A DNA stretch of 64,000 nt from Cerasicoccus sp. TK19100. Its GTDB lineage: Bacteria > Verrucomicrobiota > Verrucomicrobiia > Opitutales > Cerasicoccaceae. The position numbers were made by a program, and so were the translations under genes. Position 1 is the first letter of the stretch. Each line of letters starts with the position of its first letter. The stretch is from positions 310,001 through 374,000 of the forward strand of contig NZ_JAPWDU010000004.1 in the NCBI RefSeq assembly GCF_027257155.1, given 5' to 3'. Of this stretch, positions 2,227-45,812 are shown one piece after another. Below the pieces are notes generated by a model. The model did not search any database, was not told where the DNA came from, and saw nothing but the letters and a program-made list of their open reading frames with translations.

Positions 2227-4671
2227 CTACTTGAGCCCCGTGAGTTTGCGGATGAGCCACTCGGTGCCCATCATCCCGATTAACAACATGAAGAAAAGCG
2301 GCGACGACCATACGTCGACATCGATCAGCGACTTCACCGTCTCCGACTCGGAGTCGAGGATATCCGGCAGTTCAGCCAAGTCTTCCTCGCGGAAGAATCG
2401 ACCACCCGAGGCCTCAGCCATGCGCTCCATCAGGGGCGCGTTCATGGCGGTTTCACCGAGCTCGAATTGCGCGTCGGAGACCAGTGCTTCGACCTTAGCG
2501 GTCTCGTCGTGATCAAGCGACAGCGTGTAAGTGCCCGGGCGTGCTGCAAGGAATGACGCCTCGTAGAAGCCCGCCTGCTCTCCCGCCGGTTGCAGGAAAA
2601 TTTGCGATGTGGTGGGCATGCCCGCGTCGGCTGAATCCGGCGAAGCTTGGTAACGCAAAGTTGCCGAAACCTGTGCATCGTTGTAAGGGCGATAGCCTGG
2701 CTTAAACAGACGGCCAAACACCTTCACCCGATCACCCGCCACGTAGTCGTTGCGCTCCATGTTCAGTTGGCTGAGCGAGGAGGATGTCAACAGCCGACTC
2801 ATAGCCATGCGCTGCACCACCTGGCTCCAGAAGCCCCAATACGGGTTGCCGCCCCGCAGAGCGCGCCAGCGCCAGAAGTTGTCCGTGCCCAGGTAAAGAC
2901 AGGACCCGAGGCCAAAGCCTTGCAGCGCGATCACCGGCATTTTGCCAAAGCGCGTTGCCCGCAGGAGGGATGGATCGACGGCGAGCACTTCCGTGGTTGG
3001 CTTGGCCTGCGTCACCGGCGACACCCAATAAATCGGCGGCAGCTGCTGCCAGTATTCCGCGTTTTCATCGGGCATCGGCAGGAACTGCAGCATCGGGTTA
3101 CGTGAACCGGCGGCCGTCAGCTCCAGGTTAATCGGCTGGTCAAAATATGAGCCCACAGACTGCAAATTTGCACCGGATTGAAACTCAATCGGGACCAGAT
3201 CCGAAAGCGGCGTGCCGAGGTAATTCCATGGGTTATTTTCGCGCCCGGCGAGCAGGATCAAGCCGCCGCCAAACTGCGACACCCAGTCCTGCATCGACTG
3301 CATGGCACTGTCGCCCATGACAGCCGGCGGCAGGTCGCCCAGAATGATGATATCGTATTCAAAGAGCTTTTCGCGGTCGGTCGGGAACTCCGTGATGTAG
3401 TGCGAGCCCTCGCCTTGCGCCATGGCGGGCGAAGCGCCGTTTAAGAAGATATCCAGATCGATCCGGCGGTCACGGCCCAGCGCGGCTTCGAGGTAGCGGA
3501 ACTCCCAGCGCGGCATGTTCTCCGCCAGCAGCACATTGATCTTGGAATCGATCACGCGGACACGTTGCTTGCGCGAATTGTTCTCCTGACTCGTCTCATC
3601 GCTGCGTGGGTCGATACGCGCCTCCAGCGTATATTCGCCGACCTCAGTGGGCAGCCAATTAAGCGTGGTTGTCTGCTCGTTTCCGGTAAATGTCACGTCC
3701 TCGCCGTCGACAATCTTGCCGTTCACGAAGAGCGCCAAGTTCGCGCGCTGGCCCGCCAAGCCCTGCCCCCGGAAGCGAATCGTAGCGTTGACCTCGTCTT
3801 CCACTGTGACCACCTCGGGCACGTAAAGATTGTTCACGACGATATCCAGCGGCTCGGTGATGCCGACGCCGTAAAAGTAGAGCGGCGCCTTGTCCTGCGA
3901 GGCCGATGCGGCGGCGGCCATCGGCGGCATGCCGCCGTTGCTCGCGCCGTCGGTCATGAGCAGCATGCCTGCCAGTGGTTGCCCGCGCTTGCGGTCGAGC
4001 ATCTCGCGCACCGCGCTGCCCATCTGCGTGCGCGGACTTTCCGCAACCAGATCGCTCAAGGTATTCGCGCCAGCCTCATTCGTTTCGAGCGGATTAGAAA
4101 TCTCCGACACCTGCTCATTGAAGGTGAAGAATACCAAGTCGAACTTTTCATCGAGGCGCGGGATCAGGTCGATGTCTTCATTGCTGAGCACCTCGCGAAT
4201 TACGTCCATACGCGGCACGGCGGAGTATTTATCCGGATTGCCCGTGACGCCCTGATTCAGCCCGCGGTCGGCATTTAAATCACCCTTGGCAATGGCGGCG
4301 CGCACGAGGTCTTCCTGCCGGATGCGCACGTCGGCAATGTTGCTCGACGAACTGGTGTCGATGCCAATCAACAACGTGCGGCGAATCGTTCCTTCGACCG
4401 TCAATTGCAGCACCGGTCGCTGAATCAAAAGCAGCATCAGCGCGATGGCACCAATGCGCAACAGCGTCAGCACCGTGCGGCGGAATTTGCTCATCTTACG
4501 CTGCGTGTGGCGGTAGCTCCAGATCGCCAAGCCGAAGAGCGCGATGGAAAGGAAAATCATCGTCCAATTACCAAGTGGACTGCGCAGCACCAACTCTGCG
4601 CCGGCGAGCTCACCGGCTTGTTCCGGTGAGAGCCCGAGGAGGAAGGCAATGATCTGGTTGACGATATCCAC
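2227..4671 (-). CDS. VWA / glutamine-amidotransferase-like membrane protein
   Basis: An 814-residue membrane protein of the large BatA-neighbour type. Two N-terminal membrane helices lie at about 35-53 and 66-84. A von Willebrand A-like domain starts near residue 99, with a MIDAS-like DTSSS at 105-109 and a later LLMTDGAS strand. An Ig-like segment follows, then a class I glutamine-amidotransferase-like fold around 430-500 (YDIIILGDLPP, GGGLILLAG) with no obvious catalytic Cys-His pair. A single C-terminal helix anchors the end near 790. Such proteins are thought to form protein-interaction complexes with MoxR ATPases. The start lies 3 bases downstream of the batA-like stop, which indicates one operon. 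Confidence 0.8.
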   Translation of the reverse strand: MDIVNQIIAFLLGLSPEQAGELAGAELVLRSPLGNWTMIFLSIALFGLAIWSYRHTQRKMSKFRRTVLTLLRIGAIALMLLLIQRPVLQLTVEGTIRRTLLIGIDTSSSSNIADVRIRQEDLVRAAIAKGDLNADRGLNQGVTGNPDKYSAVPRMDVIREVLSNEDIDLIPRLDEKFDLVFFTFNEQVSEISNPLETNEAGANTLSDLVAESPRTQMGSAVREMLDRKRGQPLAGMLLMTDGASNGGMPPMAAAASASQDKAPLYFYGVGITEPLDIVVNNLYVPEVVTVEDEVNATIRFRGQGLAGQRANLALFVNGKIVDGEDVTFTGNEQTTTLNWLPTEVGEYTLEARIDPRSDETSQENNSRKQRVRVIDSKINVLLAENMPRWEFRYLEAALGRDRRIDLDIFLNGASPAMAQGEGSHYITEFPTDREKLFEYDIIILGDLPPAVMGDSAMQSMQDWVSQFGGGLILLAGRENNPWNYLGTPLSDLVPIEFQSGANLQSVGSYFDQPINLELTAAGSRNPMLQFLPMPDENAEYWQQLPPIYWVSPVTQAKPTTEVLAVDPSLLRATRFGKMPVIALQGFGLGSCLYLGTDNFWRWRALRGGNPYWGFWSQVVQRMAMSRLLTSSSLSQLNMERNDYVAGDRVKVFGRLFKPGYRPYNDAQVSATLRYQASPDSADAGMPTTSQIFLQPAGEQAGFYEASFLAARPGTYTLSLDHDETAKVEALVSDAQFELGETAMNAPLMERMAEASGGRFFREEDLAELPDILDSESETVKSLIDVDVWSSPLFFMLLIGMMGTEWLIRKLTGLK

Positions 4672-4674
4672 GGC

Positions 4675-6864
4675 TTAACGGGAGCGGCTGGACCGCTGGG
4701 CGAGAATGGTTTCGATGATGAGAAAAAGGAATGCGAGAAGGATGAAAATACCGGTCAACTCAGTGCCTGCCCGCTGGGCCTGCATCTGGCCGCGAAGGTC
4801 GGCACCCTGCTCCCAGGTGACGACTTGCACCGCCTCGCTGAGCAGCTCCTTTTGCTGGTCGGAAATCAGCTCGGGACGCGACTCGGTGGGATCGAATTGC
4901 ACGGCGAACTTCAGCACTGTTTCGGGCTGCGTGTTTAACACGACCTGGTAGCCGCCTGCCAGGCGCACGTCGGAGATGCGCAGGCTGGCCTGGCCGTCAA
5001 TCAGCTCGACCGTTTCCACGACTTCAAAGGGCACATCACGCTCGTCGATGTTCGTTACGGTCGCCGTGGCGTCGACGTAGCTATCGCTCAGGTTGAGCAT
5101 AAACGGCTGGCCCGCGCGGATGTTTAACCGGTCGTCCTGACTCTGAATCATGTAACCGATCGCGCGGTGCAAAAACGGCAGGTAAACTGCGCGCAGCGCA
5201 AAGTCATTCCAGCGCGTATCCGCGGTGCTGCCAAAGAGCACCACACGACCATCGCCATAGGCGCGCTCCATGATCGCGGGCTGCCCGTCGCTGTAGCTGA
5301 CGACTGTTACCGGCTTGCCGGCCAGTCGCAACGCTTCGGGGCGCAGGCGTGGACGCTCCTCTTCCGGTGGCCAGGCAGAGGGGACCAGTTCCGCGCGTTG
5401 ATAAAAAACAGCAGTGTTCAACGAGCCCTGCCCACCGGTGAAAATCGCCGGTATCGGGTGCTCCGGCTGGCTGGCGTCAAAGCTGTAAACCTGCCCGGCT
5501 ACCTCCTCGCTTTCATAAACGCTGGCGGGCAAAATCGCATACTCGTCAAAGAGCACATCGTTGTAAAAACCTTCATCGGTGTTTGGTCCGGGGAAGATCA
5601 ACAGCCCGCCACCATTGCGCAGGAAATCCGCGAGGCTCGACACCAGCGCACTGGATAAGTTGGCCACATCTGACAGCACCACGATGTCGGCGCGGGCGAG
5701 ATTGGCGGCGCGGAAATTCTTGGCGCTTACTTCTTCGACTTGGATGTAGAAATCCTTCTTGCGCGAATCCGGCACCGGTTGCAGCGCGTTCTTGAGGAAG
5801 AAGAGCGAGCGATCCTTTTCGTCGCGCGCTTCGGTTCCTTCAACGAGCAACACATCGATAGTATCGTGCGCCTGGAGGGCGATGGAGCGCTGGTCGTCGG
5901 CCTTGAGGCGGTCAGCGGGAATAGATGCAGTGACCGTATGATAGCCGTCCTTCGCCAGCCGCGCATCCATGGAAACGACTTTGGACTGACCAGGCTCGAT
6001 CAGCTCGATCACGGCGTCGTTAATCGGCGCACCGCCATTGAGCGACAGGTAAACATTCGTGTTGCGCGCCTCGGTGTTGCCGTAGTTAGTCACCTCTACG
6101 TAGAAGCGAACCGGGCGGCGCGTCGAGACGAGTTCGGAGTCCGGTCGCAGCATGCTGACGCCGAGATTCGGCTCGGTCCCCTGCCCCAGGAATATCATCG
6201 ACGCCGGGAAGCGCGCCTCCGCCGTTTCGAGCGTGTTGATGATCTGCGTGAAGTCGCGGAAACCAAGACTCTGGCCGTCGGTTAAAATATAGAGCTCACC
6301 CTTCGCGCCCTGGTCGGAAGTCAGCAAATCAATGGCGCTGGTTAGCGGGCTGGCGAGGTTCGTCGACTGGCTGGTGGCCGGGTAATTGCGCAGCGTGCTG
6401 CGGACGAGTGACATGTCCTGCGTCGGCACGGAGATCGCGGGCTCCAGATCATCCGAGGCGAGGAAAATAGCGGCTTTGGACCCCGTGGGCAGCGAGTCGA
6501 TAATCGCCTCACCGGCTTCCCGCGCACGGTCGCGGCGGGTGTCCACGCCGTTGCTGGTGTCCATGCTGTAGGAGTTGTCGATGACCAGAATGGCATTCGT
6601 GCTGGAGAGGCCCAGGAAGTTGTCACCGGGCAAGACCGGACGCGCGAGCGCAAGCGTGATCATGAGGATGATCAGGCAGCGAATGAGCAGCAGCAAGAGG
6701 TCCTCGATGCGCAGCTTTTTCTGGTGCTGTTCGTGGCTCTTTTTCAGGAACTGCATGGCCGCCCACTTCGTCTTTTCGATGCGGGTGCGGTTGAGTAGTT
6801 CCAGCAGAATGGGGATGGCGATCGCCGATGCTCCGAACAACAACGCGCCATTGAGAAATGTCAT
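4675..6864 (-). CDS. BatA-type protein (aerotolerance-like N-terminus, VWA domain)
   Basis: This 729-residue protein opens with the two-helix BatA N-terminal domain: helix 1 at 1-22, the LLELLNR and WAAMQFLKKS motifs, and helix 2 at about 55-76 followed by ALARPVL. A VWA domain follows with an intact DxSxS (DNSYS, 96-100). Next come a CARDB/Ig-like segment, an amidotransferase-like segment (ADIVVLSDVANL, NGGGLLIFPGPN) and a C-terminal helix ending in RSSRSR. In Bacteroides, BatA proteins were linked to oxygen tolerance; here the role is best described as an envelope VWA complex driven by MoxR. It sits downstream of the DUF58 gene across a 182-bp repeat-bearing gap. Confidence 0.87.
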   Translation of the reverse strand: MTFLNGALLFGASAIAIPILLELLNRTRIEKTKWAAMQFLKKSHEQHQKKLRIEDLLLLLIRCLIILMITLALARPVLPGDNFLGLSSTNAILVIDNSYSMDTSNGVDTRRDRAREAGEAIIDSLPTGSKAAIFLASDDLEPAISVPTQDMSLVRSTLRNYPATSQSTNLASPLTSAIDLLTSDQGAKGELYILTDGQSLGFRDFTQIINTLETAEARFPASMIFLGQGTEPNLGVSMLRPDSELVSTRRPVRFYVEVTNYGNTEARNTNVYLSLNGGAPINDAVIELIEPGQSKVVSMDARLAKDGYHTVTASIPADRLKADDQRSIALQAHDTIDVLLVEGTEARDEKDRSLFFLKNALQPVPDSRKKDFYIQVEEVSAKNFRAANLARADIVVLSDVANLSSALVSSLADFLRNGGGLLIFPGPNTDEGFYNDVLFDEYAILPASVYESEEVAGQVYSFDASQPEHPIPAIFTGGQGSLNTAVFYQRAELVPSAWPPEEERPRLRPEALRLAGKPVTVVSYSDGQPAIMERAYGDGRVVLFGSTADTRWNDFALRAVYLPFLHRAIGYMIQSQDDRLNIRAGQPFMLNLSDSYVDATATVTNIDERDVPFEVVETVELIDGQASLRISDVRLAGGYQVVLNTQPETVLKFAVQFDPTESRPELISDQQKELLSEAVQVVTWEQGADLRGQMQAQRAGTELTGIFILLAFLFLIIETILAQRSSRSR

Positions 6865-37565: not shown

Positions 37566-39710
37566 TTAGAGGACGCCGAGTAATTCGAGGTATTTTCGAT
37601 TAGTGGCGTAATTATCGGTTTTGATGAAGATGTAGTCGTCCATGCCAGCAGCCTTGAACGCCTCTTCGTGGTCACCGGGATAACCGGCGAGGAGCACTTT
37701 TACATTGGGGAGCTTGGCCTTGATTACCTTCATGAAGTCGGCAGCCATCGATTCGTAATCCGGGTCGCAACCGCAAATCACGGTTACTTTCGCGCCGGAT
37801 GCCATCAGGGCCCTCGCCGCTTCATCCGCATCGGTGAAGCCAGGTGAGTTGATCACCTCGAAGCCACCGGTTTCTAAAAAGCTTCGGATAAAGTCCGCGC
37901 GAACCTTATGCCGTTTCAGCTTCTCAAGACAGGTGAGATAAATCTTCGGTCCGTGCTTGTGCTTGAGTTTGTAGGCGGTCGATGCGGCGCGCAGCTCCTC
38001 GTAAATTTCGGCAAGTCGGCGGTTCGGCAGCGCTTCGATGCAGACCGGTGCGTCCGCATAAGCGCGCAGTGCGCGGGAGATTTCACCCAGGCTGGCTCCG
38101 GCGATCACGGCCTCAGTAAGCTTCGCCAACTTTGCATCCAGCTTCGCCTTCTGAATGGCACCCAACATCTCGATGATCTGCTTATCCGTTTCCTCATCAC
38201 AGCCGACACGCTGACGCTCCAGTTCCATTGATCGCTTGAAGCGCAGGGTGACGTAGTCTGGAATACGCGGATCGAGCGGAACTTCTTCCAGGTTCGGATA
38301 CTGGTTGGTGCCGACGAGAGACATCCGCCGCTGGCCGACCATTTTTGTCTTTTGCTTGGCGACCTCCGCAATCACGTCTTGGATTACTTTGTCCTGCAAA
38401 GCTTGATAAACGCCGCCGGCAGCTTCGATCTGTTGAAAGACTTCCCAGGCCTTTTTAGCGACTTCGTTCGTGAGGTTTTCAATATACCAGCTGCCACCGG
38501 CGGGGTCGACGACCGCGGTCAGCTCACACTCTTCCTGCAGGATGATCTGCGTGTTGCGCGCAATGCGGCGCGAGAAGGCATCCGGCACGCGCAGTATCTC
38601 GTCGAACGCGCCAACCGTGAGGCTATCCACCCCGCCAACCACGCCACAAAGGGCTTCCGTCGCCGTGCGCAGCATGTTGGCGTAAGGGTCATGCTTGGTC
38701 TTATTGTTAAAACCAGTGCGCGCATGTAGCTTCATGACCTGCGCTTCTTTGTCGCCGCCCAGCTCTTTGATAATGCGCGCCCAGAGCTGACGCGCGGCAC
38801 GGATCTTGGCGAGCTCCATGAAGAAGTTACCACCGATGGCGATCGTGAAGCGCATTTGTTTGGCTACTTCGCTGATGTCCATTCCGCGCTTGGTCAGCGC
38901 GCGCAGATACTCGACACCCGTTGCCAGCATAGCACCAAGCTCTTGCGTGGCGCTCGCCCCCGCAGAGTGATACGGCATCCCACTAACGCCGATTGCGCTA
39001 AAGTTGGGCATCTCCGCCGCATTCGACTTTGCGATGCAAAGCATCTCGTCATACAGTTGCTCAAGTGAAGTGGGCAAAGCCCCCGCACTGGCAAGCACTG
39101 CGAGCGGATCCAGCCCAAGGCCACCTTTTACCGCCTTCAGGTCCACGCCTTTTTGCTGCTTCAACCATGCGCGGAACAAGGCGGCGATGGGCGCACCGGC
39201 GCAACCCGCCTGAAAGTAAATCCCGATAGCCGTTGGCGCGATATCCCGGAAAGCGCGGCTAAAATCCCGGAGGCTCGCGATCGAGAGCCCGCAGGCGCAG
39301 ACCTCGCCATCCTTGGCGGCATCGGGGTCCAGCCCTTTTAGCGTGGCAATGTCGAAGGTAACGTTGAGCGCATTCTGGCCTCGGTAGAGGTCCTGCAGGG
39401 CAATTTGGTTAAACTCCGCGGGCTCTCCATAAGGGAGCTCCTGGGCAATTTCCCAAGGCTCAACCCGGTACCCATCAGCATGAGCCCCGCGAGTGTATTC
39501 ATCAAACCCCGGTAGGGTCGCAGCGGCCGGAGCTGCGCCCAAGTCCTCCCGGCGATAGATGGGCTGCAGCGTGATGCCCTCGGGTGTCGGCGTGAGCATT
39601 TTTTTGTCGAATGGCGCGCCTTTGAGCAGCTTGACGGCTGCATCCTTCCATTCTTCGTAGCTCGCCGCGTCGAACTCGGCAAGCAGGGACTGGTTAGCAT
39701 CATTTTCCAT
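37566..39710 (-). CDS. mutA: Methylmalonyl-CoA mutase, small subunit
   Basis: A 714-residue paralogue of the large subunit. The barrel domain is recognisable ([38 protein letters not shown]), but the C-terminal domain lacks DxHxxG ([13 protein letters not shown] instead), as in known non-catalytic small subunits. It forms the heterodimer with MutB. It is the first gene of the minus-strand mutase unit, transcribed away from the shared control region. Confidence 0.95.
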
Positions 39711-39732: not shown

Positions 39733-39787
39733 AATATTAAATTGATTTAATATTCAAATTACTGTTGACATGCCCATCACCTGTCAA
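39733..39787. promoter_or_regulatory. Divergent control region of the propionate module
   Basis: Between mutA (start 39710, minus) and mce (start 39860, plus) lies an AT-rich spacer. It has a perfect palindrome with 10-bp arms, AATATTAAAT and ATTTAATATT, at 39733-39754 (2-base centre). A second inverted pair, TTGACA (39765-39770) and TGTCAA (39782-39787), is 11 bases apart. An additional ATATTAAAT half-site lies at 39800-39808. The likely regulator is not in the window. Confidence 0.7.
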
Positions 39788-39859: not shown

Positions 39860-40264
39860 ATGATTCAAAAAATCGATCATCTGGGCATAGCGGTAAAGGA
39901 CCTCGACGAGGTCGTTAAATACTACGAGGACTCCCTCGGTCTCCAATGCGAAGGCCGCGAGGAGGTGGCGTCCCAAAAGGTGCGTACCGCGTTCTTTCAC
40001 GTTGGCGAGGTACACATCGAGCTGCTGGAGCCCACCGCCGACGACAGCCCCATCGCCAAGTTCCTCGAAAAGAACGGCGAGGGCATTCACCACATCGCGT
40101 TCGGCACGGACAACATCGAGGGCCAGCTCAAGCAGGCTGCCGACAGTGGTCTGCGCCTGATCCACGAAACCCCCTTTGAAGGTGCGGCCAACAAACTCGT
40201 CGCCTTCCTTCACCCGAAATCCACCCACGGCGTGCTCACCGAATTCTGCATGCCCAAGAATTAA
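39860..40264 (+). CDS. mce: Methylmalonyl-CoA epimerase
   Basis: A 134-residue vicinal-oxygen-chelate protein from the ATG at 39860; an in-frame start at 39770 would put the promoter inside the gene. Family motifs are KIDHLGIAVKDLDEVVKYY, VRTAFFHVGEVHIELLEPT, GIHHIAFGTDNIE and a HGVLTEF end, with metal ligands His, Gln/Glu and Glu in place. It interconverts (R)- and (S)-methylmalonyl-CoA between mutase and decarboxylase. It leads the plus-strand operon. Confidence 0.95.
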   Translation: MIQKIDHLGIAVKDLDEVVKYYEDSLGLQCEGREEVASQKVRTAFFHVGEVHIELLEPTADDSPIAKFLEKNGEGIHHIAFGTDNIEGQLKQAADSGLRLIHETPFEGAANKLVAFLHPKSTHGVLTEFCMPKN

Positions 40265-40301: not shown

Positions 40302-41855
40302 ATGGCCATCGATCCCAAATTACTGGAAGACCTGCAAAAGCGCCGGGAGCTCGCCGCCCAAGCCGGCGGCGCTGACAAGCTCGCCAAGCGCAAAGACAAA
40401 GGTCAAATGTCTGCCCGAGAACGGCTGGAATTCTTCTTCGAAGACGGCACGTTTCAGGAGTTCGGCATGCACGCGCAGCACACCTGCCATCGCTTCGGCA
40501 TGGCGGATAAGGCCATGCCCTACGATGGCGTCGTTTGCGGCACCGGCTATGTCAATGGTCGGCCCGTGGCTGCCTTCAGCCAGGACTTCACCGTCGGCGG
40601 CGGCGCAGTGGGCCGTATTCACGCTAAGAAAATTTGCGACCTGATGGAGTACGCACACGAAGCCGGCATTCCGGTGGTCGGCGTGAATGACTCCGGCGGC
40701 GCGCGCATTCAGGAGGGCGTCGACTCACTCTCCGGCTATGGCCAGGTGTTCTTTAAGAACGTTTACCTGTCTGGTGTCGTGCCGCAGATCGCCGTGATCG
40801 CCGGGCCTTGCGCCGGGGGTGCCGCCTACTCGCCCGCCCTCACGGACTTCATCATCATGACGGAGACCAACGCCAATATGTTCATCTGCGGGCCGGATGT
40901 TATTAAAGCCGCCACGGGTGAAAAAGCCGAACTGGCGCAATTCGCTTCGGCCGCCGCGCACGCCTCCATCAGCGGCAATATTCACCTGATCGCCGAGGAC
41001 GACAAGCATGCCATGGAACTCGCCTCCGAGTTACTCTCCTACCTCCCGAACAACAACATCTCCGACCCGCCCCACAATCTGGATGCGGACATCGACTTGA
41101 GCAAAGACCTCGGCATGAACGACATCGTTCCGGCCAGTCCCAAGGAGCCCCTCGACACCCACGTCGTGATCGATCTGCTCGTGGATGACGGAAACTTTTT
41201 CGAGATCCAGCCCGACTTCGCACCCAACATCATAACCGGCTTTGCCCGCATATGCGGCGTCGTGGTGGGTATCATCGGCAACCAGCCTAAGGTCAAGGCA
41301 GGCACGCTGGACATCGACAGCTCGGACAAAGGCGCGCGCTTCATCCGCACGTGCAACATATACAACATTCCGATTGTGAACCTGGTCGACGTGCCCGGCT
41401 TTATGCCCGGGCTAGCTCAGGAGCGCGGCGGCATTATCCGCCATGGTGCCAAGATGCTCTTTGCCTACGCCGCGGCCACCGTGCCGAAGATCACGCTGAT
41501 CATGCGCAAGGCCTACGGTGGTGCTTACCTCGCCATGTGCTCGGCCGATATGGGTGCCGATCTAGTCTTTGCCTGGCCCACTGCCGAGATTGCGGTTATG
41601 GGTGGCGAAGGCGCGGTAAAGGTCCTCTTCCGCAACCAAATCAAGGACGCCGAGGACCCCACCGCAAAAACCAAAGAGCTCGTCGCCGAGTATCAAGGTG
41701 AGTTCGCCTCGCCTTATCAGGCCGCAGCCAACGCCATGATCACCGACGTGATCGAGCCTTCGGAAACTCGCTCAACGATCGCCCTGGCCTTGCGCAAAAC
41801 GCTGACCAAGCGCGACACGCGTCCACCCAAGAAACACGGTAACATTCCACTGTAG
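40302..41855 (+). CDS. mmdA: Methylmalonyl-CoA decarboxylase alpha subunit (carboxyltransferase)
   Basis: A 517-residue CoA carboxyltransferase. It shows DFTVGGGAVGRIHAKKI, GGARIQEGVDSLSGYG, GPCAGGAAYSPALTDF, then DVPGFMPGLAQERGGIIRHG and KAYGGAYLAM. This matches MmdA and the very similar propionyl-CoA carboxylase beta subunit. The presence of membrane subunits mmdD and mmdB just downstream favours the sodium-pumping decarboxylase. No separate biotin carboxylase is in the window. Start 38 bp after mce. Confidence 0.92.
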   Translation: MAIDPKLLEDLQKRRELAAQAGGADKLAKRKDKGQMSARERLEFFFEDGTFQEFGMHAQHTCHRFGMADKAMPYDGVVCGTGYVNGRPVAAFSQDFTVGGGAVGRIHAKKICDLMEYAHEAGIPVVGVNDSGGARIQEGVDSLSGYGQVFFKNVYLSGVVPQIAVIAGPCAGGAAYSPALTDFIIMTETNANMFICGPDVIKAATGEKAELAQFASAAAHASISGNIHLIAEDDKHAMELASELLSYLPNNNISDPPHNLDADIDLSKDLGMNDIVPASPKEPLDTHVVIDLLVDDGNFFEIQPDFAPNIITGFARICGVVVGIIGNQPKVKAGTLDIDSSDKGARFIRTCNIYNIPIVNLVDVPGFMPGLAQERGGIIRHGAKMLFAYAAATVPKITLIMRKAYGGAYLAMCSADMGADLVFAWPTAEIAVMGGEGAVKVLFRNQIKDAEDPTAKTKELVAEYQGEFASPYQAAANAMITDVIEPSETRSTIALALRKTLTKRDTRPPKKHGNIPL

Positions 41856-41862
41856 GCCAGTC

Positions 41863-42258
41863 ATGCAAACGCCAGCCATACTCGCGTCCATGCCGGCGCA
41901 TCCTGAACTCGGCGAGAACCTCCAGTTCATTCTGGTCGGCTTCGTCTTCGTGATCATCGTGCTATTGATCCTGGCCGGAATCACGCAGTTGGTCGGCCTG
42001 CTGTTTAAGCAACCGGCCAAACCAGAAAAGTCCGCCGCCAAGGCGACACCATCTACGGCTGCCAGTTCTCCGAGCAAGAATGAACCTGCCGAAGTTACTG
42101 AAGAGCTCGACCCGGCATTGACCGCCGCCATCGTCGCCGCCGCGGTGCACGCGGTCATCGGCGATCAACCGCACCGCATCCTGAGCATCCGGCCCGCACA
42201 GCAAAGTTGGGCTCAGGAAGGTCGCCGCCAGATATTCTCATCACATACCGTTCGCTAA
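41863..42258 (+). CDS. mmdD: OadG/MmdD-like small membrane subunit
   Basis: A 131-residue protein with one N-terminal membrane helix (about 22-46, FILVGFVFVIIVLLILAGI), a proline/alanine-rich linker, and a tail with AAIVAAAVHAVIGDQPHRI, a pattern of the OAD gamma/MmdD family. In relatives it anchors the carboxyltransferase to the membrane decarboxylase. The gene starts 7 bp after mmdA and is 30 bp before the biotin carrier. Confidence 0.85.
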   Translation: MQTPAILASMPAHPELGENLQFILVGFVFVIIVLLILAGITQLVGLLFKQPAKPEKSAAKATPSTAASSPSKNEPAEVTEELDPALTAAIVAAAVHAVIGDQPHRILSIRPAQQSWAQEGRRQIFSSHTVR

Positions 42259-42288: not shown

Positions 42289-42687
42289 ATGAAACGCTTA
42301 AAGATCACCGTTGAAGGTAAAACGTATGAAGTCGAGGTCGAGATGCTCGATGACGACGGCCAACCCATGGCTTCGGCTTCGGCCCCGGTCAAGCGGTCTG
42401 CCCCGCGTCGCGCTGCCGCAGCGCCCGCCCCGGTCGGCGCACCCGCGCCCAAGTCCAGCGGTGGAAGTGCGGCGGCGGGAGATGTTCCCAGCCCGCTCTC
42501 GGCCGTAGTGGTCTCAGTCGATGTCAAAGTCGGCCAGCAAGTCAACGAAGGCGAAAAGCTGATCACGCTCGAAGCCATGAAAATGAATACCATCGTTAAC
42601 GCGCCGGCCGCCGGCACCGTCAAGGCCATCCATGTGGCTGCCGGAGACGCGGTCGAAGAAGGCCAGGGCCTGATCTCCGTCGAGTAA
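42289..42687 (+). CDS. mmdC: Biotin carboxyl carrier protein of the decarboxylase
   Basis: A 132-residue biotinyl protein. The N-terminal MKRLKITVEGKTYEVEVE sequence is typical; an Ala/Pro-rich linker follows (residues 30-60), then the biotin domain with EAMKMNT and biotinyl-Lys at residue 98. It shuttles the carboxyl group from MmdA to MmdB. It is complete and typical in size. Confidence 0.95.
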   Translation: MKRLKITVEGKTYEVEVEMLDDDGQPMASASAPVKRSAPRRAAAAPAPVGAPAPKSSGGSAAAGDVPSPLSAVVVSVDVKVGQQVNEGEKLITLEAMKMNTIVNAPAAGTVKAIHVAAGDAVEEGQGLISVE

Positions 42688-42709: not shown

Positions 42710-44230
42710 ATGGACCTCAGCAAATTAATCAGTTTAACCGGCTTTGGCGCACTTGGCTGGGAAATGATCGTCATGTGGGTGGTGGTTGCCATCCTGCTTT
42801 ACCTGGCGGTTTTCAAGGAGTTTGAGCCACTGCTCTTGGTGCCCATTGCTTTTGGTGCCCTGCTGGCCAACCTCCCGACAAAGAACATGACCGACACGCC
42901 GCCCGGAGAAATCCTGAGCCCGGTTAGCGGTGTCGTGGTGGCTGCCTACGGTGAGCCCGGGCAATCCGTGCAGATGCCCGCAACGCCTCGCCAGCGTCCC
43001 AACCACATGACCAAGCTCGGCGAAGACGGCATCGAGAAAGTCTTTGACGAAGAGAATCTGCTCTACGGCGAAGGCCGCCAGACCCTGCTCTACGTCATCC
43101 GTGGCGACGAGTCGCACAGTGAAGGCGAACCCGTCTCCGTGCAAGTCCCCTGGCTGGGCTCGGATGAAACAATCACCGTGCGCGGCGATGACTACCTGGT
43201 CTGGGCCGAAGCCTCTGGCCGCATGTCCCAGGCGTTCATCAAAGCGGGTGACGCCGTGACCGCCGGCCAGCCATTGGCCCGCGTTTTCAGTGACCACAAC
43301 GGGGGCTTGTTTCACTACATCTCGCTGGGGATCATCCTGGAAATTTTCCCGCCGTTGATCTTCCTGGGCGTCGGTGCGTTGACCGACTTTGGCCCACTGA
43401 TCGCGAACCCGCGCACGCTGCTTCTCGGCGCTGCCGCGCAGTTCGGGGTGTTCGCTACTTACCTCGGCGCGATGGCCTCGGGATTCTTCACCAGCTCGGA
43501 AGCGGCCGCAATTGGCATCATCGGCGGGGCCGATGGACCGACCTCGATCTTTCTCGCCAATGCGCTTTCGCCAGACTTGATGGCCCCAATTGCCGTCGCC
43601 GCATATAGCTACATGGCGCTGGTCCCAGTCATCCAACCGCCGATCATGCGTGCGCTGACGACCAAGAGCGAACGCCAAATCCGCATGAAAAGCCTGCGCA
43701 AGGTAGGCCGATTGGAAAAGCTGATCTTTGCGCTGATCGTGACCATCTTCTGCATCCTGGTCGCACCCGATGCCTCACCGCTTATCGGCATGCTGATGCT
43801 GGGCAATTTCCTCCGCGAATGCGGCGTCACCCAGCGCCTCTCCAAGGCCGCGCAGAACGAGCTGATCAACATTGTCACGATCTTCCTCGGGGCCAGCGTG
43901 GGCATCACCATGACCGGTGACCGTTTCCTGAAAGCGGAGACCCTCATGATTCTCGCCCTCGGCGTCGTAGCCTTCAGCATCGCGACGGCCAGCGGCATAA
44001 TCATGGCCAAGGGCATGAATCTTTTCAGCAAGAGCAAGATCAACCCGCTCATTGGCTCAGCCGGCGTCTCGGCCGTGCCAATGGCGGCGCGGGTTAGCCA
44101 GGTGGAGGGCCAAAAAGCCGACCCCAGCAACTACCTGCTGATGCACGCCATGGGGCCCAACGTCGCCGGCGTAATCGGCACGGCGCTAGCCGCGGGTTAC
44201 TTCATGGCGGTCTTCGCCAGCTCACATTAA
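42710..44230 (+). CDS. mmdB: Sodium-translocating decarboxylase beta subunit with inserted domain
   Basis: A 506-residue member of the OadB/GcdB/MmdB family, the membrane subunit that couples decarboxylation of carboxybiotin to sodium export. N-terminal helices lie at 19-35 and 38-55; the core follows from TDFGPLIANPRTLLLGAA (about 225-242), GIIGGADGPT with the key Asp near 277, and NPLIGSAGVSAVPMAARVS near the end. Between TM2 and the next helix, residues about 62-197 form an insertion with two half-motifs of a biotinyl/lipoyl-like barrel: ILSPVSGVVVAAYGEPGQSV and QAFIKAGDAVTAGQPLARV. A strong Shine-Dalgarno (AAGGAG) precedes the ATG, which is rare in this window. Confidence 0.92.
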   Translation: MDLSKLISLTGFGALGWEMIVMWVVVAILLYLAVFKEFEPLLLVPIAFGALLANLPTKNMTDTPPGEILSPVSGVVVAAYGEPGQSVQMPATPRQRPNHMTKLGEDGIEKVFDEENLLYGEGRQTLLYVIRGDESHSEGEPVSVQVPWLGSDETITVRGDDYLVWAEASGRMSQAFIKAGDAVTAGQPLARVFSDHNGGLFHYISLGIILEIFPPLIFLGVGALTDFGPLIANPRTLLLGAAAQFGVFATYLGAMASGFFTSSEAAAIGIIGGADGPTSIFLANALSPDLMAPIAVAAYSYMALVPVIQPPIMRALTTKSERQIRMKSLRKVGRLEKLIFALIVTIFCILVAPDASPLIGMLMLGNFLRECGVTQRLSKAAQNELINIVTIFLGASVGITMTGDRFLKAETLMILALGVVAFSIATASGIIMAKGMNLFSKSKINPLIGSAGVSAVPMAARVSQVEGQKADPSNYLLMHAMGPNVAGVIGTALAAGYFMAVFASSH

Positions 44231-44300: not shown

Positions 44301-45812
44301 ATGATGACCATGACGGCAATCCCCGAACTAACTGCAGCCGAAGCCGCTGCGATGATTAACGATGGTGACACCATCGGTTTCAGCGGATTCACCCCCGCCG
44401 GAGCCGCCAAGGCGATTCCACGCGCATTGGCCGCTCGCGCCAAAGCCGAACATGAGGCCGGGCGACCGTTCAAAATCGGCGTGGTCACCGGTGCATCCAC
44501 GGGCGACTCACTCGACGGCGAACTTGCCCGCGCGGACGCCGTTGCCTGGCGCACCCCGTATCAATCGGACAAGTATCTGCGCAAGTCCATCAACGCCGGC
44601 AAGACACGCTTCTTCGACATGCACCTTTCCATGCTGCCGCAGAACGTGCGCTACGGATTCCTCGGCAAGTTCAAGTATGCGGTGATCGAAGCCTGCGATG
44701 TTTCTGAGGATGGCGAGATCATCCTGACAACCTCCGTCGGTGCCACCCCGACTTTCTGTAATGTCGCGGACAAGATCATCATCGAGCTCAATGAGAAGCA
44801 CCCCAAAGGTTTGCGCGGACTGCACGATATTTACGAGCCGCTCGACCCACCCAACCGCCAGCCCATCCCGATAAACACCTGCCGCGATCGCGTGGGCACG
44901 GATGTGTTGAAAGTCGACCCGACCAAAATCGCCGGCATTGTGCGGACGGATCTGCCCGACGAAACCGGCGGCTTCAAGGAGCCCGACGGCATCACGCTCA
45001 AAATTGGTGATAACGTCGCCCGCTTCCTCGCCGAAGAGCTCAAGTCCGGTCGCATTCCGTATAAGTTTTTGCCGATCCAATCCGGCGTGGGTAACATCGC
45101 TAATGCGGTGCTCGGTGCCATGGGCCGCCATCCGGACATCCCTGCCTTCGAGATGTATTCCGAAGTGATTCAAGACTCCGTCATCGACCTAATGAAGGAC
45201 GGGGCCGTGAAGTTCGCCAGCGCAACATCCCTCACCCTGAGCCCGCCCGTTCTGCAGGAAGTTTACGAAGATCTGGAGTTCTACAAAACGCGCATGCTTC
45301 TGCGTCCACAGGAAATCTCCAACCATCCGGAGATCGTACGGCGCCTGGGCATCATCTCGATCAACACCGCGATTGAGTTGGACATCTTTGGCAACGTCAA
45401 CAGCACCCACGTCATGGGCAAGGACCTGATGAACGGCATTGGCGGCTCGGGTGACTTCACGCGCAACGCATTTATCTCGATCTTCACCTGTCCGTCGGTC
45501 GCTAAGGGCGGCAACATCAGCACGATCGTGCCACTGGTCAGCCACCTCGACCACAGCGAGCACAGCGTGCAAGTTGTCATCACCGATCAGGGCATAGCAG
45601 ACTTGAGGGGCAAAGATCCACACGAGCGCGCCCTGGCGATCATCGACAACTGCGCGCACCCGGAGTACCGCGACAAATTGCACCGTTATTTGCAGGCCGT
45701 GAAAGACGGCCACACACCGCAAAGTTTGGGCGACGCCTACAGCATGCACCAGGCATTTCTGCAAACTGGCGACATGCACAACGTGGTATGGTCGTCACCC
45801 AAGCCACAGTAG
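44301..45812 (+). CDS. Succinate/propionate (acetate) CoA-transferase, acetyl-CoA hydrolase family
   Basis: A 503-residue class I CoA-transferase. It has an N-terminal GFSGFTPAGAAKAIPRAL, the oxyanion loop QSGVGNIANAVLG, catalytic Glu in FEMYSEVIQDSV (about residue 289), and GGSGDFTRNA. This matches succinyl-CoA:acetate and propionyl-CoA:succinate transferases. In this operon the fitting reaction is propionyl-CoA + succinate to propionate + succinyl-CoA, closing the cycle. ATGs at 44301, 44304 and 44310 are close; the first is used. A strong terminator follows. Confidence 0.9.
   Translation: MMTMTAIPELTAAEAAAMINDGDTIGFSGFTPAGAAKAIPRALAARAKAEHEAGRPFKIGVVTGASTGDSLDGELARADAVAWRTPYQSDKYLRKSINAGKTRFFDMHLSMLPQNVRYGFLGKFKYAVIEACDVSEDGEIILTTSVGATPTFCNVADKIIIELNEKHPKGLRGLHDIYEPLDPPNRQPIPINTCRDRVGTDVLKVDPTKIAGIVRTDLPDETGGFKEPDGITLKIGDNVARFLAEELKSGRIPYKFLPIQSGVGNIANAVLGAMGRHPDIPAFEMYSEVIQDSVIDLMKDGAVKFASATSLTLSPPVLQEVYEDLEFYKTRMLLRPQEISNHPEIVRRLGIISINTAIELDIFGNVNSTHVMGKDLMNGIGGSGDFTRNAFISIFTCPSVAKGGNISTIVPLVSHLDHSEHSVQVVITDQGIADLRGKDPHERALAIIDNCAHPEYRDKLHRYLQAVKDGHTPQSLGDAYSMHQAFLQTGDMHNVVWSSPKPQ

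Follow-up and report, generated by a model that had tools for sequence, protein, structure and literature searches.

A biotinyl/lipoyl-type barrel lacking the biotinylation motif fills a variable loop of a predicted sodium-pump beta subunit in Cerasicoccus

The window analysed here, a stretch of 64,000 nucleotides from Cerasicoccus sp. TK19100, contains a compact methylmalonyl-CoA decarboxylase sodium-pump operon on the forward strand, with the gene order epimerase-mmdA-mmdD-mmdC-mmdB-CoA transferase. The methylmalonyl-CoA epimerase gene (39860..40264) is recognised by TIGR03081 at 157.8 bits, above the cut-off. (Note that the start at 39860 is our choice and that the listed open reading frame opens at 39770.) It is followed by mmdA (40302..41855), which encodes the carboxyltransferase subunit (Carboxyl_trans, 580.7 bits; TIGR01117, 722.7 bits, below the cut-off of 998.8), by mmdD (41863..42258), which encodes an OAD gamma or delta-type scaffold subunit (OAD_gamma, 45.2 bits), and by mmdC (42289..42687), which lies directly upstream of mmdB and encodes a real biotin carrier with the motif EAMKM (Biotin_lipoyl, 63.6 bits). 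Downstream of mmdB, the gene at 44301..45812 encodes a CoA transferase of the acetate/succinate/butyrate type for which three NCBIfam models exceed their cut-offs (NF053666 at 812.6 bits, TIGR03458 at 754.7 bits and NF053853 at 643.1 bits); the butyryl-CoA:acetate model scores best and the succinate types next. On the opposite strand, at 37566-39710, is a methylmalonyl-CoA mutase-like gene whose mutase N-terminal domain is over the cut-off and for which the small-subunit model is below it.

From its sequence, mmdB (42710..44230, forward strand, 506 residues) is assigned as the beta subunit of a methylmalonyl-CoA decarboxylase-type pump, that is, as the putative carboxybiotin decarboxylase and Na+ translocator. 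The Pfam model OAD_beta (PF03977) matches it over its whole length at 505.7 bits against a cut-off of 31.6, and TIGR01109 matches at 512.3 bits against a cut-off of 190.6. The AlphaFold2 model of the whole protein, built from a 70-sequence alignment (mean pLDDT 90.0, pTM 0.84), superposes on 6iww_A over 395 residues at 3.3 Å with a Z score of 46.9, and MmdB thus has the fold of the solved beta subunit. A search of the window's genome (97% complete) found no OadB besides it. The only solved beta-subunit sequence that MmdB matches is that of the Salmonella oxaloacetate decarboxylase (OAD; 6iva/6iww), with which it has in common the whole core, the equivalent of Glu39 and the insertion point between helices T2 and T3'.

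At that insertion point insert-less OadBs have a loop of a few residues, and MmdB has about 140 extra residues (57-197; 42878..43300). The helices on either side are placed by the AlphaFold2 model: T1 (residues 17-34) and T2 (residues 40-53) are encoded at 42758..42868, and T3' and T3 (residues 200-224; 43307..43381) together span the membrane once between the insert and the T3-T4 loop. Glu39, in the T1-T2 loop (42824-42826), is by alignment the equivalent of Salmonella Glu40. The alignment of MmdB with Salmonella OadB (6iva) spans residues 5-66 and picks up again at residue 200, and the extra residues take the place of Salmonella domain E. An earlier note on this DNA had reported a barrel-like insertion in MmdB; the insertion is real, with its extent corrected to residues of about 57-197 and the barrel proper running from about 67 to 193.

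Structure prediction argues that the insert is folded. Within it the pLDDT of the whole-protein model is 86-97 per block of ten residues, and the domain modelled alone (32 sequences) reaches a pLDDT of 90.1 and a pTM of 0.85, with low values at the ends only; these confident models rule out a disordered linker. Because whole-model Foldseek matches were all to core transporters, we folded and searched the domain alone, for which the best Foldseek E-value was 7.8e-3 (none below 0.001), with probabilities near 1. Superposition on 2ejf_C and 9yx4_J defines the core of a biotinyl/lipoyl-type barrel at residues 67-193 (42908..43288): the predicted barrel matches the carrier 2ejf_C over 69 of 69 residues (1.7 Å, Z 9.4), 9yx4_J over 68 of 68 (1.4 Å, Z 9.3) and 2d5d_A over 70 of 70 (2.0 Å, Z 9.1). 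(Note that 2ejf and 2d5d hold one common sequence, which the PDB names as the gamma chain of a Pyrococcus methylmalonyl-CoA decarboxylase.) Among structural neighbours in the PDB, biotin carriers come first, from Z 9.4 downwards, and adaptors come next (BesA 8.6, EmrA 8.4, ZneB 8.3 and HlyD 8.2). Since the carriers and the adaptors lie within about one Z unit of each other, the fold class is clear and the nearest family is not settled.

Profile comparisons point to the same superfamily. By hhalign, an alignment of five minimal inserts matched 16 biotin carriers with a probability of 99.3% (score 100) and an alignment of 32 inserts matched them with a probability of 98.3% (score 78). In contrast, 100 column-shuffled carrier alignments gave at best 4% with the minimal inserts and 30% with the 32 inserts (scores of at most 17 and 25, respectively), and a reversed carrier control gave less than 1%. 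The half-motifs quoted in the earlier note, SPVSGVVVAAYGEPGQSV at residues 70-87 and FIKAGDAVTAGQPLARV at residues 176-192, are present as quoted and, on these comparisons, are more than chance resemblances. Profiles were needed to see the relationship: the insert sequence alone gave weak matches in the PDB (best E 0.26), and against the Pfam model Biotin_lipoyl it scored 20.3-20.5 bits, slightly below the cut-off of 22.1. Three of the five relatives' inserts that were scanned exceed that cut-off (L027 at 31.4, L029 at 25.3 and L025 at 23.4 bits), the other two fall below it (18.9 and 15.9 bits), and a Biotin_lipoyl match at E <= 0.01 is found in 23 of the 32 aligned inserts. With a complete barrel and both half-motifs supported by the AlphaFold2 models, by PDB superposition and by hhalign with shuffle controls, we regard it as secure that the insert is a biotinyl/lipoyl-type (barrel-sandwich hybrid) domain.

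The assignment to the superfamily does not settle the exact donor. Searched against the PDB, the minimal-insert profile found the lipoyl E2 chain 7b9k first (3e-12, summed over several domains) and biotin carriers next (2e-9), and the full-insert profile found the MacA adaptor chimera 4dk1 first (1.9e-6) and a biotin carrier next (3.7e-6). Thus lipoyl domains and adaptors match the insert by sequence as well as or better than carriers do, over about 70 aligned residues. The adjacent mmdC could conceivably have been the donor, which we offer as conjecture. Other identities were tried and set aside. The suggestion in the earlier note of a hybrid barrel held for the biotinyl/lipoyl type and failed for the M23 (LytM) type, for which Peptidase_M23 scored 16.5 bits against a cut-off of 28.7 and matched one of 32 members at E <= 0.01. 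A periplasmic adaptor (membrane fusion protein) was likewise not recognised, with HlyD_3 at 18.1 against 22.2 bits and TIGR01730 at 17.1 against 94.9 bits for the insert. A sequencing or assembly artefact is ruled out, as 59 genomes of the order, out of 372, carry the insert.

The biotinylation lysine, said in the earlier note to be missing, is indeed missing. The motif searched for, MKM, occurs in none of 55 barrel-type proteins, MmdB among them, and the insert, lacking the (A/S)MKM lysine of the hairpin tip, would by its sequence not be a functional biotin carrier (BCCP). Aligned with carriers by hhalign, an arm at residues 132-160 (43100..43192) replaces the biotin-bearing hairpin tip. A helix has also been added within the barrel, at residues 105-120 of the AlphaFold2 model (43022..43069), between the first half-motif and the strand at 126-132. 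Bare barrels with neither kind of extra segment are found in L027, L029 and L071/L196, and nearly bare ones in L167 and L169. Position conservation marks Arg131 and Asp161, which flank the arm, and Trp165, just past it. These residues surround what was once the biotin-bearing tip and could either hold the arm in place or mark a contact; they could also form a site for binding a partner rather than an internal brace. The MmdB insert as a whole is acidic, with 11 K/R against 21 D/E.

As a separate observation, three relatives of family f4 (L198, L199 and L208) have OadB frames of 605-627 residues with a long stretch at the helix site within the barrel. Judged by eye, this stretch is probably a coiled-coil helix, reminiscent of the hairpin that efflux adaptors carry.

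On which side of the membrane the insert lies bears directly on what it might do. In the available part of the paper on the Salmonella enzyme (PMC7274780), the essential Glu40 of the T1-T2 loop is counted at the cytoplasmic face, Thr148 and Asp149, after T3, are likewise at the cytoplasmic face, and the gamma tail is cytoplasmic. Because the insert is one crossing away from Glu39 and one from the T3-T4 loop, both cytoplasmic, it should face the periplasm; this placement is our own parity count from a homologous structure and from loop charges. Over 70 OadBs, the mean number of K+R residues summed over the six loops assigned as cytoplasmic was 13.9 (6.7 of them in T5-T6), compared to 2.3 (1.7 of them in T8-T9) for the six loops assigned as outside, and these loop charges agree with a periplasmic insert. 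The same part of the paper describes domain E as four helices, poorly conserved and missing in some organisms, with helix E4 touching its neighbours in a small trimer contact. It further describes a central cavity lined by T3', T3 and T8 and open to the periplasm, and a proposed elevator motion in which the core moves against a scaffold that includes T2 and T3' (PMC7274780).

In the class, an OadB over the cut-off is found in 63 of 286 genomes, and of the 56 distinct OadBs that parsed in the class survey, 12 have a barrel (a count that excludes two places over the cut-off, in G065 and G095, and about 14 unparsed OadB-like frames). In the order Opitutales, 118 of 372 genomes have an OadB over the cut-off and 59 match the insert profile at E <= 1e-8. 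A folded domain of this kind at this site is unusual, as the earlier note had it, and these surveys do not find the insertion in most verrucomicrobial OadBs. Insert-bearing families in the order are f1, f2, f3 (one genus), f4, f5, f7, f62, f67 and f70; note that the profile takes in a short conserved flank of OadB and that f67 and f70 match its first 43-45 positions only. Minimal barrels were seen by inspection in f66 (L196, whose insert is that of the Opitutales-labelled L071) and in the families f48 and f50 elsewhere in the class; the members of all three came from OadB searches and not from the insert profile. Two insert carriers lie outside the order, elsewhere in the class. A survey of the phylum with the insert profile, which scored at most ten candidates per genome and can miss minimal barrels, gave matches at E <= 0.001 in 28 of 387 genomes. 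In nine of these, all from the window's order, the insert lies within a frame of OadB size, and the remaining 19 matches are weak (E of 5e-7 or worse); five of the 19 (L223-L227) have no open reading frame of at least 200 residues that matches MmdB.

Other lineages have unrelated sequence, or no insert, at the domain E site. In the class survey, the 44 OadBs without a barrel have inserts of about 4 to 184 residues there, and the 59 parsed rows of a scan of genome contigs (rows drawn from the 80 top matches among at least 594) have inserts of about 4 to 138 residues, which bears out the view that this position is variable in length. A trimmed barrel profile matched 56 of 56 barrel-type frames, among them the 32 sequences from which it was made, and none of 159 other OadB-like frames, the roughly 14 unparsed ones included; the minimal-insert profile matched 55 of the 56 and again none of the 159. 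The variety in length and sequence, taken with this profile test, marks the site as open to insertions in general, the barrel being one of its fillings.

Several further observations concern relatives of MmdB. In the Akkermansia-like family f9 (L019, L026, L033-L041, L045, L047-L055 and L070), non-barrel inserts of about 90-184 residues stand at the same site; those scanned (L019, L045 and L048) have no Pfam match, and no f9 insert matches the barrel profile. A Clostridia metagenome-assembled genome (L087), from another phylum, has about 140 extra residues there, also with no barrel-profile match. In family f7 it is common for one genome to encode two barrel-type OadBs at different loci (L042 and L024 in G281, and likewise G312, G321, G332, G350 and G447). 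Several f3 genomes have a divergent beta subunit ahead of a canonical OadB. In L061 this subunit (2317-3609, forward strand) lies about 0.7 kb upstream of the OadB (4293-5561, forward strand); its nearest family is the malonate decarboxylase MadB (TIGR03136, 476 bits, below the cut-off of 597), and a similar spacing, by coordinates, occurs in G093, G538, G544 and G562.

The insert is, by its substitution rates, kept by selection. Its dN/dS is 0.12-0.31, compared to 0.02-0.08 for the core, in the 11 of 18 pairs in which insert dS was measurable (insert dS was saturated in the other seven pairs, and several dS values exceed 1), and it evolves several times faster than the core. That it is faster than the core and lacking in relatives of the order argues that it is not essential to the chemistry of the pump and may be close to dispensable; being under selection all the same, it fits a structural accessory rather than a catalytic part. 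On a tree of the OadB core made without the insert (and omitting 25 near-identical loci as well as L079-L150 except for six of these), the barrel proteins cluster strongly, needing four changes compared to a mean of 35 in shuffles. An AU test does not reject a single group of barrel proteins, as one origin would give (p-AU 0.168, with the log-likelihood lower by 16.5); for this test the group was defined with the first tree already in view, and ten further long-branch rows were omitted.

The reading to which we lean, with about an even chance of being right, is that MmdB is an elevator-type pump subunit in which a degenerate carrier-type barrel in domain E serves as an outer brace of the trimer. 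MmdB would then be an ordinary elevator-type carboxybiotin decarboxylase and Na+ pump subunit that has gained a barrel in an outer loop; the biotin-bearing tip of the hairpin would have been lost, with a 30-residue arm in its place and a helix added. Short linkers would hold the barrel to the static scaffold helices T2 and T3' beside the three-fold axis, so that three copies might sit over the periplasmic mouth of the trimer as a cap or clasp. Such a cap would brace the beta trimer, much as helix E4, in the available part of the Salmonella paper (PMC7274780), does slightly, and would leave the decarboxylation chemistry at the cytoplasmic face unchanged. The bracing itself is a function that we infer.

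The same data can be read in other ways. The loop could be a tolerant one, filled differently in each lineage, with the barrel a near-neutral or lineage-specific decoration of little effect on the pump. We regard this as possible, if doubtful: the poor conservation of domain E, as reported for OadB in what is available of PMC7274780, the spread of insert lengths, the lack of recognisable relatives of the barrel among the other inserts and the faster change of the insert than of the core all speak for it, but a dN/dS well below 1, a fold maintained across many families and the conserved non-glycine positions Arg131, Asp161 and Trp165 do not. Those positions, around the former biotin end, would suit instead a periplasmic binding module that resembles the lipoyl domains of efflux adaptors and might bind, for example, the delta subunit at its outer end, another barrel beside it or a protein of the envelope. 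The structural neighbours include adaptor barrels (BesA, EmrA, ZneB and HlyD), MacA is the best PDB sequence match of the full-insert profile, and three f4 relatives have the long, probably helical stretch within the barrel; yet no adaptor model reached its cut-off and no candidate partner gene was seen in the operon region between 39.5 and 47.5 kb, and we consider such a module unlikely.

Two readings start from the likeness of the barrel to a biotin carrier. The earlier note had proposed that the barrel offers a dock for the biotin carrier or a shield for the carboxybiotin site, an idea to which a carrier-like fold inside the very subunit that handles carboxybiotin lends some appeal. With the insert predicted to be periplasmic, across the membrane from the carboxybiotin cavity, and carboxybiotin arriving from the cytoplasm, the barrel could neither dock the carrier nor cover that cavity, and we hold this proposal to be highly improbable. 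It is also conceivable, though improbable, that the pump copied its own carrier domain into the outer loop, lost the biotin site and came to use the copy as a periplasmic trimer cap that shapes the exit of Na+ or the entry of H+; the best PDB profile matches, to a lipoyl E2 chain and to the MacA adaptor, make this less likely. If it were true, a carrier domain would have crossed the membrane and come to serve a primary ion pump mechanically or as a gate.

Compared to known systems, the trimer-brace reading would place MmdB as a familiar pump with a new part. Domain E of Salmonella is four helices (in the available part of its description) of about 60 residues by alignment, whereas that of MmdB is predicted to be a beta barrel of about 140. 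The insert has the fold of the biotin carriers (MmdC; Pyrococcus 2ejf/2d5d) over the whole carrier, together with profile homology, but unlike them it is without EAMKM, has a 30-residue arm for the tip and an extra helix, is embedded in a membrane protein and is predicted to lie outside the cytoplasm. The lipoyl domains of E2 (7b9k), which the minimal inserts match best by sequence in the PDB, likewise differ from it in that the insert is predicted outside the cytoplasm; the modification motif searched for in the insert was MKM. Efflux adaptors (BesA, EmrA, HlyD, ZneB and MacA) resemble it in having a non-modified lipoyl-type barrel with an insertion, outside the cytoplasm, whereas no adaptor architecture is over the cut-off in the MmdB insert. 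In those adaptors the helix lies between the two half-motifs, and in MmdB it lies between the first half-motif and the strand at 126-132, not between the half-motifs. Among the matches listed in a search of open-licence literature, no title or abstract opening describes such a domain in decarboxylase pumps.

Taken at the strength of its models, then, the locus presents a known pump with a new domain variant in its beta subunit, in which domain E is predicted to have a recognisable fold in one lineage. There, a poorly conserved domain gains a fold and an evolutionary relation, and its purpose becomes testable. It would be a biotinyl/lipoyl fold reused without its cofactor within a biotin enzyme's own membrane subunit and probably across the membrane from its usual place, and it cautions against assuming that any carrier-like domain of a biotin enzyme handles biotin.
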